DNA from: Maritimibacter dapengensis
GTDB lineage: Bacteria > Pseudomonadota > Alphaproteobacteria > Rhodobacterales > Rhodobacteraceae
Reading direction: 5' to 3'
DNA: 64,000 nt
NCBI RefSeq assembly: GCF_019218265.1
Contig: NZ_JAHUZE010000003.1
Span: forward strand, 434,001 to 498,000
Below the pieces are notes generated by a model that was given only the letters and a program-made list of their open reading frames with translations, had not been told where the DNA came from and did no database searches. A program made the position numbers and the translations under genes. Positions 51,703-59,116 of the stretch are shown here, piece by piece; position 1 is the stretch's first letter; every line of letters begins with the position of its first letter.

Positions 51703-52827
51703 CTAGTGGCTTTGCCCGTTGTCCGAAACTTTGTCGCGCCGCAGAAGACCCTGAAGCCAGACATCGTTCCCGGTTTCTTTGATGGTATCGTTCAAGAGCG
51801 CTTCGTAGGACCGTTTCTCAAGGTGCTTTTGTTCCTGACCCACCCGGCGTCCTCCAAAGAAGAGCCGCGGAACGTTGAAGAAATTGGTCAGAAAGGCATT
51901 GCTGACATCGCCGTTTCGAGCTTCGGCATTCTCCACCGCGCGGGCAAGCGAAGTCATGGCTTCCGCCTCGGAATGCTTGGGCAAGAGCACCTGCTCGCCG
52001 ATATGCAATTGAACGGGGACCTCGTCTCCGGACGAAAACACGCTCCGCAGGCGTTTGTTTAATTCCGTTTCCTGATTGCGGTGCCGCAGCGTCTGGCCTT
52101 TTTCCGGGATGCACAGGAAGGTGCCATTGCCGCGATACGAAAGCACACCTCCGTCGGCAAGCAGGGTATCCTGCACCGCCGCGGCGGTTGCGCCGAGCAT
52201 CAGCTTGAATTGTTCGGATGTGTACTCGGCATACAGATGGTCAACCGATCCGATTTTCACGGCGACAGTCGTCAGCCGGGCCGTGCGACGACGCAGTAAC
52301 TCTCGCAGATAATTCTCGAACTCGCTGTATTCGAGCGCGGATTCAATGCCTGGGAGCGTTATCGGATCGTTGAGCATGATCTCCTTCAGCTCTCCGCCCA
52401 TGCCCACCAGCTCACCGGCTTTGTAGGTCCGATGTTCGTTTCGGGACTTCTCCAGCGAAAGCTTCTGAGCCGCCTGCATTCTCGGCGGAAGGTCCACGCA
52501 GTCGAATGGTTTTGTCACGTAATCGGTAGCGCCCGCGTGGAATGCGCGGTCGAGATCCTGCTTCGCGTGCATCGCCGTCAGCATGATGATCGGCGTCTGT
52601 TTGTGACCGGGGCTTTGGCGGATCAATTTGACGAGCGATATCCCGTCCACTTCGGGCATTTGAATATCGCAAAGGAAGCACTCGAAAGGTTCTTCTGCGT
52701 CCGAAATGGCCTCGAGCGCCGCCTTTGCCGAAGGCACGGCATTTACTTCGTGCTTCGTTGAGAAATCCAGGTACTGAACAACGATATCGAGGATTGTTGG
52801 ATCGTCATCGATGACTAGGACTCTCAT
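51703..52827 (-). CDS. Response regulator: receiver plus degenerate GGDEF-like domain (paralogue 1)
   Basis: A 374-residue protein. The receiver (residues 1-120) is intact: IDDDPTILD, phosphorylated Asp54 in CFLCDIQMPEVDG, MLTAM, and the lysine in YVTKPFD. Residues about 165-320 have the layout of a GGDEF domain (SEFENYLRELLRRRTARLTT, then strand-turn-strand), but the GGDEF motif reads YRGNGTF, so diguanylate cyclase activity is not expected. It shares this signature and overall layout with the protein at 57791-59116. Likely a phosphorylation-controlled protein-interaction or c-di-GMP/GTP-sensing output. Confidence 0.82.
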   Translation of the reverse strand: MRVLVIDDDPTILDIVVQYLDFSTKHEVNAVPSAKAALEAISDAEEPFECFLCDIQMPEVDGISLVKLIRQSPGHKQTPIIMLTAMHAKQDLDRAFHAGATDYVTKPFDCVDLPPRMQAAQKLSLEKSRNEHRTYKAGELVGMGGELKEIMLNDPITLPGIESALEYSEFENYLRELLRRRTARLTTVAVKIGSVDHLYAEYTSEQFKLMLGATAAAVQDTLLADGGVLSYRGNGTFLCIPEKGQTLRHRNQETELNKRLRSVFSSGDEVPVQLHIGEQVLLPKHSEAEAMTSLARAVENAEARNGDVSNAFLTNFFNVPRLFFGGRRVGQEQKHLEKRSYEALLNDTIKETGNDVWLQGLLRRDKVSDNGQSH

Positions 52828-53342: not shown

Positions 53343-54134
53343 ATGGCGTCGCGCGTTCAATCTGGAAATTCTTGGTCCCTGAAGGCCGATCGTCGGGAAA
53401 ATACCGACCAGAATGACGCGTCTCGAATTGCGAAGCAGACTGCGGACTGGACGGCCTACGCAACGTCGTACGACCTGCTCGCCGACTACAATCCGGCGTA
53501 TCAGGAGCTCGTGAAGGAATGCGATGAATTCCTTTCCGGGATCGAGCCGCCGCGCGTCATTTTCGACGTTGGCGGTGGCACCGGGACATACTCGCTCCTG
53601 GCCGCTCAGAAGTTCCCCGAAAGCGCCATTTACCTGATCGAACCCGACCAGGGTATGAGAATGCGTGCCCAGGAGAAGCTGTCTGGTTTCGACAACATCA
53701 CGTATGTTGGTACCGGTCTGGAAGACGCCGAAATTTCGGTCAAAGCGGATACCATAATCTGCGTTCACTCGCTGTATTCCATGCCGGATCAAACGGAACG
53801 GTTGAAAAACCTGCGTGATTTTCTTGAGCCTGGCGGCCTTATGTTCCTTGTGGATCTAGGGCGAACCATGAACGTGACGGATTGGCGATCGTACTTGTTT
53901 TCCCACCTGACCAGGGAATACGGCCTCATCAAAGCACTGAAAGTGTTCTGGCAGGGTCGGGAAATCGCGAAGCAGAACAAAGCGATTTTCGAAGCGCAGA
54001 AAAACGGCCTGTATTGGACGCACACCGGAGCAGAGCTTGCAGCTTCGGTCGAGAATGCAGGGTTCGAAATCATAAAACAGAAATCCGTCTACCGCGACTA
54101 CAGCGATCTGCTGTTGTGTCGCGCTGCGATGTGA
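53343..54134 (+). CDS. Class I SAM-dependent methyltransferase
   Basis: A 263-residue methyltransferase. Motif I VIFDVGGGTGTYSLLAAQKF (near residue 75), motif II YLIEPDQGM, and LRDFLEPGGLMFLVDLG as motif III. The start follows GGGAG at nine bases. It overlaps the next gene, a FeeM/AHL-synthase-like acyltransferase, by four bases, so the two probably act on the same product, for example by methylating an acyl-amino acid or its precursor. Substrate unknown. Confidence 0.82.
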   Translation: MASRVQSGNSWSLKADRRENTDQNDASRIAKQTADWTAYATSYDLLADYNPAYQELVKECDEFLSGIEPPRVIFDVGGGTGTYSLLAAQKFPESAIYLIEPDQGMRMRAQEKLSGFDNITYVGTGLEDAEISVKADTIICVHSLYSMPDQTERLKNLRDFLEPGGLMFLVDLGRTMNVTDWRSYLFSHLTREYGLIKALKVFWQGREIAKQNKAIFEAQKNGLYWTHTGAELAASVENAGFEIIKQKSVYRDYSDLLLCRAAM

Positions 54135-54850
54135 ACGGGCAGCGATTGGGGGCTGGAGAATTGTACGAGCAGGTTCTGGAAACGCTTAAGCATTGCCGAT
54201 ACACCGTCATGACGAACGGTGACGACCTCGATAAGGTCTTTCGGCTTCGCTACGAGTGCTATCGCGCCGAGAATTCGATTCCGCGAAACGAAGACCGGGT
54301 CATGTCGGATTCCTTCGACGAGAGTGACAATTGCGTGCACGTTGCGGTTGAAATGGACGACACGGTTGTGGCCGCCGTCCGTCTCCACCTCGTGTCGCGT
54401 CTGAACAAGGAAGCGCCTACGATTGAGGTGTTTCCGGAAATCATGGAAACAGTCGACGCGGGCAACACGCTCCTCGATCCGACCCGGTTTGTCGTGAACC
54501 CGGAGGCGCGGAAGGCGCGGCTGCCTCTCCACTTCTTGGCACTGCGTATTCCGTTCCTCGCGACGTCGTTTTACGACGTGGACGTTGCCCTCGCACCGGT
54601 GCGTACAGAGCATTCCGCGTTCTATCTTCGTTACCTGGGGTATGAGGTCTATGCACCTCCCCGCCAGTATCCGGGATTGAAAAAGCCCGTTTGCCTCTTG
54701 ACCGCGAAGGTGAAAGAGCACCGTGACGAAGTCCTTCACAGATATCCGTTTTTCGGCAAGATAGAGTCTATTCCGCAGTCCGAGATCAATTTTCCTAGAC
54801 TACGCGAATCCTACGTTGCATCGGGCCGGAACTCTTTTCGCGCCGCCTAG
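54131..54850 (+). CDS. FeeM-like N-acyl amino acid synthase / AHL-synthase-fold acyltransferase
   Basis: A 239-residue GNAT-fold protein. VFRLRYECYRAENSIPRNEDR corresponds to the N-terminal Arg-Tyr-Tyr region of FeeM and LuxI-type enzymes; HVAVEMDDTVVAAVRLHLVSR is the central strand pair; LLDPTRFVVNPEARK parallels the ESSRFVV-type motif of AHL synthases. FeeM makes long-chain N-acyl amino acids from acyl-ACP, and LuxI makes acyl-homoserine lactones; which this does is not decided by sequence. Start: GTG at 54131 overlapping the methyltransferase stop; TTG at 54161 behind GGAG is an alternative. No LuxR gene is in the window. Confidence 0.72.
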   Translation: MNGQRLGAGELYEQVLETLKHCRYTVMTNGDDLDKVFRLRYECYRAENSIPRNEDRVMSDSFDESDNCVHVAVEMDDTVVAAVRLHLVSRLNKEAPTIEVFPEIMETVDAGNTLLDPTRFVVNPEARKARLPLHFLALRIPFLATSFYDVDVALAPVRTEHSAFYLRYLGYEVYAPPRQYPGLKKPVCLLTAKVKEHRDEVLHRYPFFGKIESIPQSEINFPRLRESYVASGRNSFRAA

Positions 54851-55059
54851 TCGCGCCGCTGGCAAGTACCGTAAATGACGACCGCGGCCTCGTTTTTAGG
54901 CCGCAGATTGATGAAATGTTTATCGTGCCTTCATGCGTGTGCACGTCCTGACGACCTTCGAAATACACGCCGAAAGGGCGATTTGCCCGAAAACCGTCCG
55001 ATTTCTACCAAAATTCATGTGTAACGTGCCCGGTAGCGGGAGTTTGGAAAGAGGCAAGG

Positions 55060-56463
55060 ATGCAACGCCTGGTAAGAGCGGCGCGGTCGGAATGGTTCGA
55101 CTGGGAAGACCGCGAAGAACGGATCAAGGATTATATTGATCTAACCAACAAGCTCATTTGGCAGCGGCAGGCGAGTTTCCTGGCGGCGGCACTGCTTGCG
55201 GCTTTCTACTTCGATCCGTTCTCGACCATTGCATGCTACATCGGCGTGTTTCTGTCGGAACTTCTTGATCAGATTCTCGGAGCGAGAGCGAAATCCTGGG
55301 ATGGGAAGGACCCGGAAATCGGCCGGCGTTACCTCAGGCGGATCACGTTCAACACGGTCGTCAGCGCCGGCGCAATCAGTGTGTTCATTCTCAACATCGC
55401 GTGGCAGCAAACCTCAGGCGGGCACTTCACGCCCCTCTTTTTCCTGTTTTCCGCGTCTCTTTTCGCCGCGATGTATAACAGTCAGATATTCACGGTGCTG
55501 CTCCTGAGATTGTCGATCTACGGGGCGACCTTTGTGGCTATCGCTTTCCTGGACGTCTTACGATACCGGCCTGAACTCTCCTCCGTGGTCTGGCTGGAAT
55601 TTTTCACGATTCTCTTCGTGCTGTATTTCATCGCGGACACCTCGGCGAAATTCTACAAGAACTATCAAGAGCGGCTCGAACAGCTGAAACTGATCCGCGA
55701 AGAGAACGAACGCACGAAGGCCGCCTACGAAATCAAGTCGCAATTCCTTTCGACGGTCAGTCACGAGCTTCGCACCCCCCTGACGTCGATCAAGGCTTCG
55801 ATCGACCTGGTAAACGCCGGCGTTCTCGGCGAAGTGCCCGAAACGCTCAAACCGCCCCTCGCCATCGCGGCGAAGAACGGCCAGCGTCTGGCCAACCTGA
55901 TCGACGACCTCCTCGACCTTCAGAAAATGGAGGCGGGCGAGATGGACTTCCACTTCGAAGCAATGAGTGTCAACAGCTTGGTGAAAGAAGCGGTTGAGGC
56001 CACGGCTGGCTATGCAGAAAAGCTCGGCATTCACGTGACAACGATCATCCCTGCCACGGACGTGATGATGAACGGCGACCATGACCGCTTGATACAGGTC
56101 ATGAACAACCTTCTGTCGAACGCGCTGAAATTCTCGGATGAGGGCGGATCCGTTCAGGTGCGTCTCGAGTCCAACGGAAACCGTGTGCGTATATCGGTGG
56201 AAGATGAGGGCGTTGGGATACCAGCAGATGCACGTGAGCGTGTCTTCGGAAAATTCAGCCAGGTCGACTCCTCCGATATCCGCAAGGTCGGCGGCACCGG
56301 ATTGGGCCTCAACATCTCCAAGCAGATCGTCGAACGACACAAGGGCACGATCGACTACGAAAGCGAACAGGGCGTCGGCTCAACGTTCTTCGTAGAATTC
56401 GATCAGGTGCAACAGGAAGACACCGGTGAAACCGGAAGCGACCCGTTGGCCCTTTCGGCCTGA
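55060..56463 (+). CDS. Membrane sensor histidine kinase
   Basis: A 467-residue kinase. Residues about 35-195 contain roughly six hydrophobic segments forming a membrane sensor with little periplasmic sequence; a coiled linker follows (YQERLEQLKLIREENERTKAAYE). HisKA carries the phosphorylated histidine in FLSTVSHELRTPLTSIK; the ATPase domain has N box MNNLLSNALKFSDEGG, G1 VEDEGVGIP and G2 GGTGLGLNISK. It has no receiver of its own; the stand-alone receiver follows 0.23 kb downstream. GAGGCAAGG precedes the ATG. Confidence 0.92.
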   Translation: MQRLVRAARSEWFDWEDREERIKDYIDLTNKLIWQRQASFLAAALLAAFYFDPFSTIACYIGVFLSELLDQILGARAKSWDGKDPEIGRRYLRRITFNTVVSAGAISVFILNIAWQQTSGGHFTPLFFLFSASLFAAMYNSQIFTVLLLRLSIYGATFVAIAFLDVLRYRPELSSVVWLEFFTILFVLYFIADTSAKFYKNYQERLEQLKLIREENERTKAAYEIKSQFLSTVSHELRTPLTSIKASIDLVNAGVLGEVPETLKPPLAIAAKNGQRLANLIDDLLDLQKMEAGEMDFHFEAMSVNSLVKEAVEATAGYAEKLGIHVTTIIPATDVMMNGDHDRLIQVMNNLLSNALKFSDEGGSVQVRLESNGNRVRISVEDEGVGIPADARERVFGKFSQVDSSDIRKVGGTGLGLNISKQIVERHKGTIDYESEQGVGSTFFVEFDQVQQEDTGETGSDPLALSA

Positions 56464-56470
56464 TCTGTCC

Positions 56471-56542
56471 CACTATCCGGGATCAACCTGCGATATGTAG
56501 CCTTTCGGCAGGTGGAATCCCGGTTGATGCGAAAGGATAGTG
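56471..56542 (+). other. Structured intergenic element with nested inverted repeats
   Basis: Between the kinase stop and the receiver operon lie several nested complementary arms: CACTATCC/GGATAGTG (56471-56478, 56535-56542), CCGGGAT/ATCCCGG (56477-56483, 56517-56523) and CCTGC/GCAGG (56487-56491, 56508-56512). A competing pairing ATCAACC/GGTTGAT (56482-56488, 56522-56528) overlaps the second and third. No T-run follows. It could be an RNA processing or regulatory element rather than a terminator. Confidence 0.55.
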
Positions 56543-56635
56543 TCGTCTAGAGTATATACCAATGAGGGTGTGAAAAGACTGCTTCCTGTTCCCGTTCGGT
56601 CCGCTTCAGGCCCCATGCTCGGGAGGATGCATAGG

Positions 56636-56701
56636 ATGAGTGCTTCGACGAAAGTTGTCTCCGCGTATGAGGAAAGCTACGTGCACGGTATCCGCGAATG
56701 A
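56636..56701 (+). CDS. Putative 21-residue leader peptide coupled to the receiver gene
   Basis: A short reading frame encodes MSASTKVVSAYEESYVHGIRE. GGGAGG stands nine bases before its ATG (an in-frame ATG at 56627 is also possible), and its TGA stop overlaps the ATG of the receiver gene (ATGA at 56698-56701). The receiver gene has no clear ribosome-binding site of its own, so translation through this small frame would explain its expression. No family is recognised. Confidence 0.5.
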   Translation: MSASTKVVSAYEESYVHGIRE

Positions 56702-57090
56702 ACAAGCTAGAGAGAATCCTTCACGTCGATGACGATGAGGATATCCGCGCGCTCACGAAGATGGCGCTCGAAATGGTCGGGCATTACCAGGTCCAGCAGT
56801 TCGAGTCCGGCGAAGACGCACTCAATTCATCCGAGGATCTTGTCCCTCAATTGTTCCTGCTCGATTACATGATGCCGGGCATCAGCGGGGTCGAGCTCTG
56901 GCGCAAACTACGTGATATTCCCGGTCTCGAAGATGTGCCGGCCGTATTCATCACGGCAAAGTCGGAAGACACCTTCGCGGAAAACCTGGTCGATGAGGGC
57001 GCTTTGGCGGTAATCGTGAAGCCGTTCGAAATCGCTCGGCTCTGCGAACTGATCGAAGAAGCGTGGCAGAAGCATCAATCCGACGCCTGA
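56698..57090 (+). CDS. Single-domain response regulator
   Basis: A 130-residue receiver with no output domain. HVDDDEDIRAL, phosphorylated Asp56 in LFLLDYMMPGISG, FITAKSE (Thr switch) and VIVKPFE are all intact. Such CheY-like proteins shuttle phosphate between a kinase and an Hpt protein or act by protein contact. It lies between the membrane kinase and a convergent Hpt gene, so kinase to receiver to Hpt is the simplest relay. Confidence 0.9.
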   Translation: MNKLERILHVDDDEDIRALTKMALEMVGHYQVQQFESGEDALNSSEDLVPQLFLLDYMMPGISGVELWRKLRDIPGLEDVPAVFITAKSEDTFAENLVDEGALAVIVKPFEIARLCELIEEAWQKHQSDA

Positions 57091-57172
57091 GGCCGGACCG
57101 TTACCATCCTGAATGAGCGCGTGAAAGCTGCGACGTCGGTCCGCACAGATCGCGTAGGCCGCTGCAGGACCG

Positions 57173-57664
57173 TTAGTCGGCAGTTACGCCGTACTCTGCC
57201 TTGATCGCTTCGATCATGACCATAAGTTGCCGGATCTGCGCTATCACGACATCACGTCCCACCGAGACATCGTTCGACTTGTAAGCGGCAAGCGTTGCCT
57301 CGGTCCGTCGCGCTGCTGCACCCAGCTCCGAGTACCCAAGCGTGTGGCCCACGCCGGCGATCCGGTGCGAAACAAAAGACGCGTCGTCGAAAAGGGCTTT
57401 TTGCTGCTCTGGCTTGGCGTCCGACATGATCGCCGACCTGAGCCGCGCGTGATATCCCGTCAACTTGCCTACGAACTCGCCCCGGATCTTTTCGACAGCG
57501 GGGGAAAGCGCAGCGAGGGCGGCTCTGGATTTCTCCTGATACGAGCGGGAAGACCCGCCGACATTCCTGCCCAAAACCTTGTCCCTTTGTCCTAGTCTCA
57601 GTCCCCGCGCCGTGGGTTGATCCCGCAACACTTTGTCCCCGCGGGGAAAATCGTCCGACCGCAT
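57173..57664 (-). CDS. Hpt (histidine phosphotransfer) domain protein
   Basis: A 163-residue protein whose C-terminal half is an Hpt four-helix domain: KIRGEFVGKLTGYHARL, then the phosphorylated histidine in FVSHRIAGVGHTLGYSEL, and AAARRTEATLAAY. The N-terminal 60 residues are basic and contain a repeated RDKVL/GDKVL element. I chose the ATG at 57664, behind TGAGGGTATT; an in-frame ATG at 57721 would add 19 residues that contain a third, weaker copy (GDTIL). It ends 13 bases past the preceding receiver/GGDEF-like gene on the same strand. Confidence 0.78.
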   Translation of the reverse strand: MRSDDFPRGDKVLRDQPTARGLRLGQRDKVLGRNVGGSSRSYQEKSRAALAALSPAVEKIRGEFVGKLTGYHARLRSAIMSDAKPEQQKALFDDASFVSHRIAGVGHTLGYSELGAAARRTEATLAAYKSNDVSVGRDVVIAQIRQLMVMIEAIKAEYGVTAD

Positions 57665-57790
57665 AATACCCTCACCCAATATCGTATCGCCATTGAATTG
57701 CGATAACCGTTTCAGGACCATCAAAGGTGCAGCCCGCAACGTGGCCAGACAGCCGAAGTCAGGGCGGCCCGCGTTCAAAACGCGCTTCGA

Positions 57791-59116
57791 TCATCCATTA
57801 GAAAAATTTAGTTTCTTCGACTTCCCCTGTGGTCTGCTGTTATCTCCCCCGGCTTCGGGAAGCATCCCTGTCGCGTCACCGGAGCCCGGCCTGAAAGGGT
57901 TTTCAACCTTTTTTGATTTTCCGCCCGGGAACGCCTTCGACGGATCTCCGGACCCCTGTCTCTTGGCCTTGTTCTGACGTTTCTTGAAAATGCTGGGCGG
58001 AGACTTCCGGTCGCTTGCGAGAGAAAGCTTAGGGTGTTCGCCGACTTCCGTGTTCAATTGCTCGCGCAGTAATTGTGCGAATTCGGCCCTCAAATCGTCC
58101 TGCAGGTCCTCCGACCCGGAACCACCCATGGCACCTTCATCCCGGAACCCGAGCGAGAACCGCCGTTTCGGTTCCGGCGCGGCAACAGGGTTGGCTTTTA
58201 GGCGAACATTCTCGATCGCGGTCCACGTCGCCTTGCTCAGTTCACCGCGGGTCGGGAGGCGGATCGGCGAGCCGGGGGCCAGCACGACCGTTGCGGCCGG
58301 CGGCAGTTTGGCCGTGTGCTTGCCTTCGCTCTCCGCAATCGCGACGGTGATTTCTTCTCCGAGAGCCTTGATGACGTGTTGCCCCTTGCGTGGGATCACA
58401 CCCCCGAACTCACCCGCGCCACGGTAGGCGATATAGGCGTCATAGCTGTCGAGACGATCAATGATCGCGGCGGCGACCGACCTGAGGAAGTTCTTGAACT
58501 CGAGCGGAGGCAGAATCCTGTGCAGGGTCTCCACATTGCGGATTTTCGCGGCAAACACTGTGGTCCGGAAAAGCGCGCTCCGACCGGACTGATACAGGTA
58601 GTTCTCGAAGGCCGGATACCGAAGCAGCCGATCCATCTTGCCGAGGTCGATCGCCTCGTCGAGATCGTGCTGCGTCGTGCGATCGAGCACTTCGATCAGC
58701 GAGTCGATGACATCCGCACTCTCTGCCAACGACTTACGCTCGTTGATAAGCTGCTCCGCGATACCCAGGCGAACGATGATCTCGGTCGCATCCAGTGGTT
58801 TGGTCAGGTAATCGCTCGCACCGGCCGAGAACGCACGGTCGATATAGGATTTCTCCGACATGGATGTGAGCATCAGGATCGGCGTTTCCGCGTGCTGGGG
58901 CGTTTCCCGGATCTTCCGGCAAAGCTCGATCCCGTCCATGCCCGGCATCTGAATGTCGAGCAGGAAGCAGGTGTAGGGTTTCTTCGCTTCGGCGATCAGC
59001 TCCAGCGCACGCTCGGCGGATTCACACGTTTGCACCTCGCCGTATTCGGCGCTCACAAGGATTTCCTTGAGCAGGTCACGAACGATTTTATCGTCATCGA
59101 CAGCAAGAATTTTCAT
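57791..59116 (-). CDS. Response regulator: receiver plus degenerate GGDEF-like domain with repetitive basic tail (paralogue 2)
   Basis: A 441-residue protein. Receiver: VDDDKIVRD, Asp54 in CFLLDIQMPGMDG, MLTSMSE, and YLTKPLD. The middle domain (about residues 175-315) has the GGDEF layout, but the active-site motif is YRGAGEF, so catalysis is unlikely. The last 110 residues are low-complexity and basic, with two imperfect repeats (GSGDPSKAFPGGKSKK and GSGDATGMLPEAGG...GKSKK). Paralogue of 51703-52827. The ATG at 59116 is chosen by alignment with that paralogue; an in-frame ATG at 59185 has no better upstream signal. Confidence 0.82.
   Translation of the reverse strand: MKILAVDDDKIVRDLLKEILVSAEYGEVQTCESAERALELIAEAKKPYTCFLLDIQMPGMDGIELCRKIRETPQHAETPILMLTSMSEKSYIDRAFSAGASDYLTKPLDATEIIVRLGIAEQLINERKSLAESADVIDSLIEVLDRTTQHDLDEAIDLGKMDRLLRYPAFENYLYQSGRSALFRTTVFAAKIRNVETLHRILPPLEFKNFLRSVAAAIIDRLDSYDAYIAYRGAGEFGGVIPRKGQHVIKALGEEITVAIAESEGKHTAKLPPAATVVLAPGSPIRLPTRGELSKATWTAIENVRLKANPVAAPEPKRRFSLGFRDEGAMGGSGSEDLQDDLRAEFAQLLREQLNTEVGEHPKLSLASDRKSPPSIFKKRQNKAKRQGSGDPSKAFPGGKSKKVENPFRPGSGDATGMLPEAGGDNSRPQGKSKKLNFSNG

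Follow-up and report, generated by a model that had tools for sequence, protein, structure and literature searches.

A FeeM-family synthase beside a methyltransferase and a putative sensor kinase: a candidate N-acyl amino acid methyl ester system in Rhodobacterales

Gene content of the locus in Maritimibacter dapengensis

We analysed 64,000 nucleotides of contig NZ_JAHUZE010000003.1 of Maritimibacter dapengensis (positions 434,001 to 498,000, hereafter the window; genome size 3.96 Mb), in which a gene set at 51.7–59.1 kb combines a methyltransferase, an acyltransferase of the FeeM family, a membrane histidine kinase (HK) and the parts of a phosphorelay. Judged from sequence, the best reading of this FeeM-family synthase, joined to a methyltransferase and its own sensor kinase, is a system of the N-acyl amino acid methyl ester (NAME) type. 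The first gene of the operon encodes a class I S-adenosylmethionine-dependent methyltransferase (MT; 53343–54134, plus strand; PF13489, 56.5 bits, cut-off 27), proposed here to be an N-acyl amino acid carboxyl O-methyltransferase. It is followed by the FeeM-family N-acyltransferase (54131–54850, plus strand; PF21926, 136.9 bits, cut-off 27), a member of what we call clade 1, with a probable start at TTG 54161 and an alternative at GTG 54131. Next come a membrane HK without a receiver (55060–56463, plus strand), which has HisKA and HATPase domains and four hydrophobic segments in a simple hydropathy scan, and a stand-alone receiver (56698–57090, plus strand; PF00072, 83 bits). The minus strand carries an Hpt phosphotransfer protein (57173–57664; PF01627, E 8.5e-5, 23.2 bits, slightly below the cut-off of 24.6) and two copies of a receiver protein with a degenerate GGDEF-like domain: RecG1 (51703–52827; PF00072, 91 bits), divergent from the operon, and RecG2 (57791–59116; PF00072, 102 bits). 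A sequence-only reading of the window had named these same genes, and Pfam and fold matches bear out every one of them. It had also pointed to the lack of a LuxR-type receptor; none was found among the ten window proteins scanned.

That reading had further described MT and FeeM as translationally coupled. The 4-base overlap requires a GTG start at 54131; the FeeM of relatives begins at a methionine aligned with TTG 54161, and from that start 26 bases would separate the two genes in the window. Overlapping translation is therefore doubtful. Candidate FeeM starts lie 9 to 37 bases past the MT stop in 29 of the 30 loci checked, with the 4-base overlap in the remaining one. That the two genes form one operon is not in doubt. 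The 5' intergenic regions taken from four loci gave a poor alignment (mean column identity 56%), from which nothing was inferred.

The acyltransferase was modelled with a mean predicted local distance difference test (pLDDT) score of 88. Its best solved fold is FeeM 2g0b, which fills Foldseek ranks 1–6 and is also ranked first by VIA-align (Z 19.2, root-mean-square deviation 2.5, 175 aligned), followed by the acyl-homoserine lactone (AHL) synthase RpaI (Z 17.1). Identity to 2g0b in the structural alignments is 13–14%. Only an AHL synthase was matched in a sequence-profile search of solved structures, and the fold search then gave FeeM. We rejected an AHL synthase of the LuxI type (PF00765, 16.7 versus cut-off 24, E 0.0057; NF052393, 13.7 versus 250) and a PEP-CTERM/exosortase acyltransferase (TIGR03694, 21.7 versus 111.95). 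The sequence-only reading had named an unrelated GNAT family as the finding that would undo it; the PF21926 score and the fold of the model instead assign the enzyme to the FeeM family. Two LuxI-family genes lie elsewhere in the source genome (C2 411216–411683 and C1 476685–477101), and AHL signalling may operate alongside the present system. An HK of this kind was not found near the one source-genome LuxI-family gene examined (L215/L216).

The description of the RecG domains as degenerate was correct: the motif reads GAGEF or GNGTF, and the RecG2 model has a cyclase-like fold. Its best solved matches in Foldseek are the receiver-GGDEF cyclases WspR, DgcR and PleD, aligned over nearly the whole length; the TM score is about 0.35 since the two domains are placed differently, and with a predicted TM score (pTM) of 0.59 their placement in the model is uncertain. 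The Pfam GGDEF profile gave no match in 21 relatives at E up to 1, in a search whose filters drop most weak matches. A diguanylate cyclase output was rejected on the loss of the GG(D/E)EF motif and the missing Pfam match. Because the catalytic motif is lost and the one protein modelled has a GGDEF-like fold, the C-terminal domain is probably an interaction or ligand-binding output.

Conservation of the methyltransferase, synthase and kinase core

We compared the locus across 390 genomes of the order and, separately, in a scan of named records that yielded 35 FeeM loci, 34 of them of clade 1. The acyltransferase has relatives in 19 of the 390 genomes: 12 are close (clade 1, M. dapengensis included), six are about 30% identical (clade 2) and one is distant. 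Strong MT matches (E 4e-49 or better) are confined to 13 genomes, the next match reaching only E 3.5e-10, and every one of them has a FeeM no more than about 0.4 kb away (12 of clade 1, one distant). MT adjoins FeeM in 34 of the 35 named loci and an HK match is present in 33; the exceptions are L072, which has neither MT nor HK, and L048, which has no HK before its contig ends. The pair is kept together across many genera although clade-1 FeeM proteins diverge down to 50–65% identity. The sequence-only reading had proposed a search for co-occurrence in related genomes, and co-occurrence is what we found: in 34/35 named loci, for 13/13 strong MT matches and in 10/10 loci of clade 2, described below.

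The arrangement varies in detail. Gene order is FeeM-MT-HK in L056 and L067. In Carideicomes alvinocaridis (L044, 7191–8687) a single uninterrupted reading frame of 499 residues covers both MT and FeeM, as expected of enzymes of one pathway unless a sequencing error is responsible. Among the 34 clade-1 named loci, at least 15 have a stand-alone receiver, at least 13 a receiver/GGDEF-like protein and at least four an Hpt protein, many contigs ending early. Three relatives in the source genus carry the locus; L015 and L017 are complete, and the short contig L016 holds MT, FeeM, an HK fragment, receiver and receiver/GGDEF-like genes, with no Hpt match. Hence the multistep relay proposed in the sequence-only reading has all its parts in the window, but the full set of receiver, Hpt and receiver/GGDEF proteins occurs mainly in close relatives, and the constant core is MT, FeeM and HK. 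The neighbouring exopolysaccharide locus, suggested there as a possible output, was rejected as one because the link is not conserved: no Wzc match was found in the 35 named loci, and a distant Wzc lies within the stretch read in one of the three same-genus loci (L015).

Several loci differ in their surroundings. The second copy in Roseovarius tolerans (L048, 6–5195) has a receiver protein after MT-FeeM in place of the HK, and the translations upstream of the pair resemble dynamin-like GTPases. One plasmid of Sulfitobacter sp. OXR-159 (L037) carries an unsplit set. Genome G107 (L020, 8986–10145) has, close to where a contig ends, a more distant pairing of MT (41%) with FeeM (29%), possibly a third lineage of coupling. 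Aurantimonas (L072) and Rhizobium (L213) encode distant relatives of FeeM beside which no such MT or HK was seen, over six features in the incompletely annotated L213. Both adjoin GGDEF/EAL-type genes, as read by eye in Aurantimonas.

A second FeeM clade and the family of sensor kinases

Clade-2 FeeM genes have a small membrane methyltransferase of the PEMT/ICMT type just upstream, overlapping or after a short gap, in all ten loci (nine genomes), and a related HK in nine of them. In Loktanella salsilacus the membrane protein is annotated as an isoprenylcysteine carboxylmethyltransferase family protein. A class I methyltransferase 3' of the clade-2 FeeM in L036 was excluded from the system; it matches PF04445 (214 bits), which we take to be the RsmJ family. 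Two unrelated methyltransferases are thus tied to two FeeM clades, which suggests that methylation of the acylated product matters and points to a methylated N-acyl amino acid as the product of such FeeM and methyltransferase pairs.

The HK gives a second line of evidence. The top 12 sensor-domain matches among the 390 genomes are precisely the 12 clade-1 FeeM genomes. Matches occupy 82 places in total; subtracting 12 of clade 1 and five of clade 2 leaves 65, of which 59 were examined together with an HK-less region (L198), giving 60 regions. Away from such FeeM genes, a LuxI-family gene is present by clustering in 44 of these 60 regions, with PF00765 above its cut-off in the three tested. Further LuxI-family genes lie inside L180 and L181 and, for L152, about 5 kb off on the same contig, almost entirely beyond the region examined. 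The six places left out of the 60 regions (G220, G276, G289, G358, G413 and G425) include four with a LuxI-family gene within 2 kb. Receiver-family genes of one cluster occur in 43 of the 60 regions. LuxI-family genes are common in the order (244/390 genomes at E 1e-20) and not tied to this HK. A cytochrome P450 gene, whose product could modify an acyl chain, lies near in 14 of the 60 HK regions (L140–L199).

In a tree of 88 sensor domains, the kinases next to FeeM and MT (35) and those next to FeeM and the membrane methyltransferase (9) are each set apart by a branch of support 100; three more LuxI rows (91 in all) give the same result (supports 99 and 100). On these trees, made by quick searches and leaving out 12 HK rows without a LuxI neighbour, the three partner labels (FeeM+MT, FeeM+membrane methyltransferase, LuxI) need two changes, versus about 35 on average for shuffled labels. 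With all 15 HK rows labelled as lacking LuxI included (L152, L180 and L181 among them), 12 changes are needed. The two groups of FeeM-linked kinases are not sisters: those of clade 2 adjoin a LuxI-linked kinase (support 98), and those of clade 1 adjoin the LuxI-linked L140/L141 (support 86). Since each group sits next to LuxI-linked kinases, FeeM appears to have become associated with this kinase family on two occasions, a direction inferred on trees whose root was not. Together these patterns suggest that LuxI-fold synthases in Rhodobacterales often accompany one membrane-kinase family, within which the chemistry has changed at least twice.

A probable NAME-type product, its alternatives and known systems

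Reported sources of NAMEs and their relatives are R. tolerans EL-164, Roseovarius sp. D12_1.68 and three Loktanella isolates, and compounds of this type are called specific to these two genera (PMC6296433). They are inactive on LuxR-type AHL receptors (PMC6296433), which fits a different receptor. No function has been proven for them (PMC6296433, PMC11580390), and earlier work had come up with no candidate for their synthase (PMC11580390). Our search of the literature by title and opening lines of abstracts, mostly outside subscription papers, likewise met no named NAME synthase, and none appears in the available parts of PMC6296433, PMC11580390, PMC4582587, PMC6356624 or PMC12479983.

The NAME hypothesis was recorded before the named loci were scanned. 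Two MT-FeeM loci (L041 and L048) are present in R. tolerans DSM 11457, together with two FeeM-profile matches of lower score, of which one (36.5 bits) exceeds the cut-off and the other does not. The genus of L. salsilacus, delimited here as a genome group (g7) through the near-identity of G006 to L. salsilacus plasmid DNA, carries clade 1 or clade 2 in 8/9 genomes versus 16/381 others in the order sample (Fisher test, P-value 5e-10, with 381 an assumed number). MT-FeeM loci are hence strong candidates, on sequence, for NAME synthase genes. Acylation and carboxyl methylation taken together, the locus probably makes a NAME. The wider reading, which includes the claim that the NAME synthase genes being sought are these very loci, is as a whole tentative and falls a little short of even.

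The system might work in four steps. By its family, the FeeM-type enzyme would very likely acylate an amino acid with a long chain taken from acyl-ACP or acyl-CoA. Given the coupling of the genes, MT would likely methylate the free carboxyl group to give a neutral NAME-type compound, such as the methyl ester of N-acyl alanine, glycine or a similar amino acid. Co-inheritance argues, with somewhat more for it than against, that the membrane kinase would bind this product through its hydrophobic N-terminal domain. The domains present leave the last step evenly balanced: phosphate may be relayed to the stand-alone receiver, to the Hpt protein and to RecG1 and RecG2, which would act as signalling outputs without cyclase activity. 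The sequence-only reading had suggested, as one possibility, the making and sensing of an acylated and methylated signal; co-occurrence and the identity of FeeM bear on this, and we now prefer it to other interpretations.

A number of observations weigh against it. The HK sensor occurs in 80 of the 390 genomes, most of them without FeeM. In L047 the HK is encoded on the opposite strand, as is the HK fragment that L039 shows where its contig ends; no adjacent HK is present at L048, the second R. tolerans copy (again at a contig end), or at the clade-2 locus G461. The L044 fusion keeps an internal methionine at the usual FeeM start and could be a sequencing error. On a further plasmid of Sulfitobacter sp. 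OXR-159 (L035, 6818–8979) MT is split by an IS256-family transposase gene, with FeeM and HK intact. The R. tolerans genome searched is that of DSM 11457, and the main NAME producer is EL-164, another strain of the species. FeeM loci are not significantly enriched in the Roseovarius genus group (7/79 versus 19/390 in the order, P-value 0.13). The class I profiles matched by MT are not specific for carboxyl methylation, with weak NCBIfam matches to BioC, trans-aconitate methyltransferase and many others, and the clade-2 methyltransferase stays below the Pfam ICMT cut-off (20.6 versus 24) while passing PEMT and DUF1295. Finally, in Stieleria the tyrosine part has been proposed as the target of methyltransferases encoded near N-acyl tyrosine synthases (PMC12479983).

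The Stieleria proposal also favours an alternative in which the product of FeeM, N-acyl amino acids or an aminolipid, serves in the membrane or as a surfactant and is modified by MT, perhaps not at a carboxyl group, and the HK senses the envelope instead of a signal; the acyltransferase in addition slightly exceeds the Acetyltransf_5 cut-off (27.0 versus 22.4). We consider this unlikely: two separate methyltransferase families with related HKs, and an HK lineage that tracks the synthase type, suit a ligand-receptor pair better, and HK relatives elsewhere mostly adjoin LuxI-family genes. In a second alternative, the compound that these enzymes make is antimicrobial or antialgal, and the HK only controls its production on another cue; kinases beside biosynthetic operons are often regulators. 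NAMEs do have minor algicidal and antibacterial properties (PMC11580390) and showed no quorum-sensing activity in earlier tests (PMC4582587). Yet the sensor clades follow the type of synthase and the LuxI-associated HK relatives suggest a signal role, which makes this second explanation improbable as well.

It is much less probable that the FeeM-like enzyme is an AHL synthase of changed sequence, with MT acting on something unrelated. The weak autoinducer-synthase match (E 0.0057) and the annotation of L. salsilacus clade-2 members as AHL synthases, one of which narrowly passes that profile (24.6 versus 24), would fit; but the window enzyme is below the AHL cut-offs and has FeeM as its best profile and best fold, a homoserine lactone offers MT no free carboxyl group, and the source genome has two LuxI-family genes elsewhere. 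That unrelated genes became neighbours by chance and were transferred horizontally as a block, for which patchy distribution and plasmid copies might speak, is hardly credible against the persistence of MT with FeeM through many genera and wide divergence of clade-1 FeeM. A NAME-type system thus stays preferred, and the NAME question gains a two-gene synthase candidate and a candidate receptor, both testable.

Among known systems, the N-acyl amino acid synthase FeeM (PF21926, 2g0b) shares the family profile and is the best solved fold, but the window enzyme is coupled to a methyltransferase and a sensor kinase and is only 13–14% identical to it. WspR- and PleD-type receiver-GGDEF proteins share the fold of RecG2, whereas the RecG proteins have lost the GG(D/E)EF motif. 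In the Phc system of Ralstonia, with the methyltransferase PhcB, the kinase PhcS and the regulator PhcR, a methyl-ester signal is read by a membrane kinase. There the signal is a 3-hydroxy fatty acid methyl ester and no FeeM is known to take part, the likeness being one of description. Phc methyl-ester signals are named in the abstract of PMC11298618.

The N-acyl tyrosine (stieleriacine) regions of Stieleria also have a methyltransferase gene close to genes for N-acyl amino acid synthases; they differ in the proposed site of methylation and in having nitroreductase and ThiF genes, and the term histidine kinase does not occur in the available text (PMC12479983). NAME producers share the expected chemistry, and the genes occur in the species R. 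tolerans and in the genus of L. salsilacus, a link by gene presence. The sequence-only reading knew of no named system with this composition, and indeed we found no FeeM version of a synthase and HK arrangement in print, in literature mostly outside subscription papers. A related arrangement was nevertheless described in roseobacters in 2013: orphan luxI genes (group I-delta, topologies H, I and J) with an upstream histidine kinase (PMC3824088). These, too, set an acyl-signal synthase of the LuxI/FeeM fold beside a kinase, with no LuxR adjacent. Here the putative signal synthase is of the FeeM type and a methyltransferase is added, and the likeness is one of arrangement. The locus in the window looks like a FeeM-type version of this orphan luxI and kinase arrangement.

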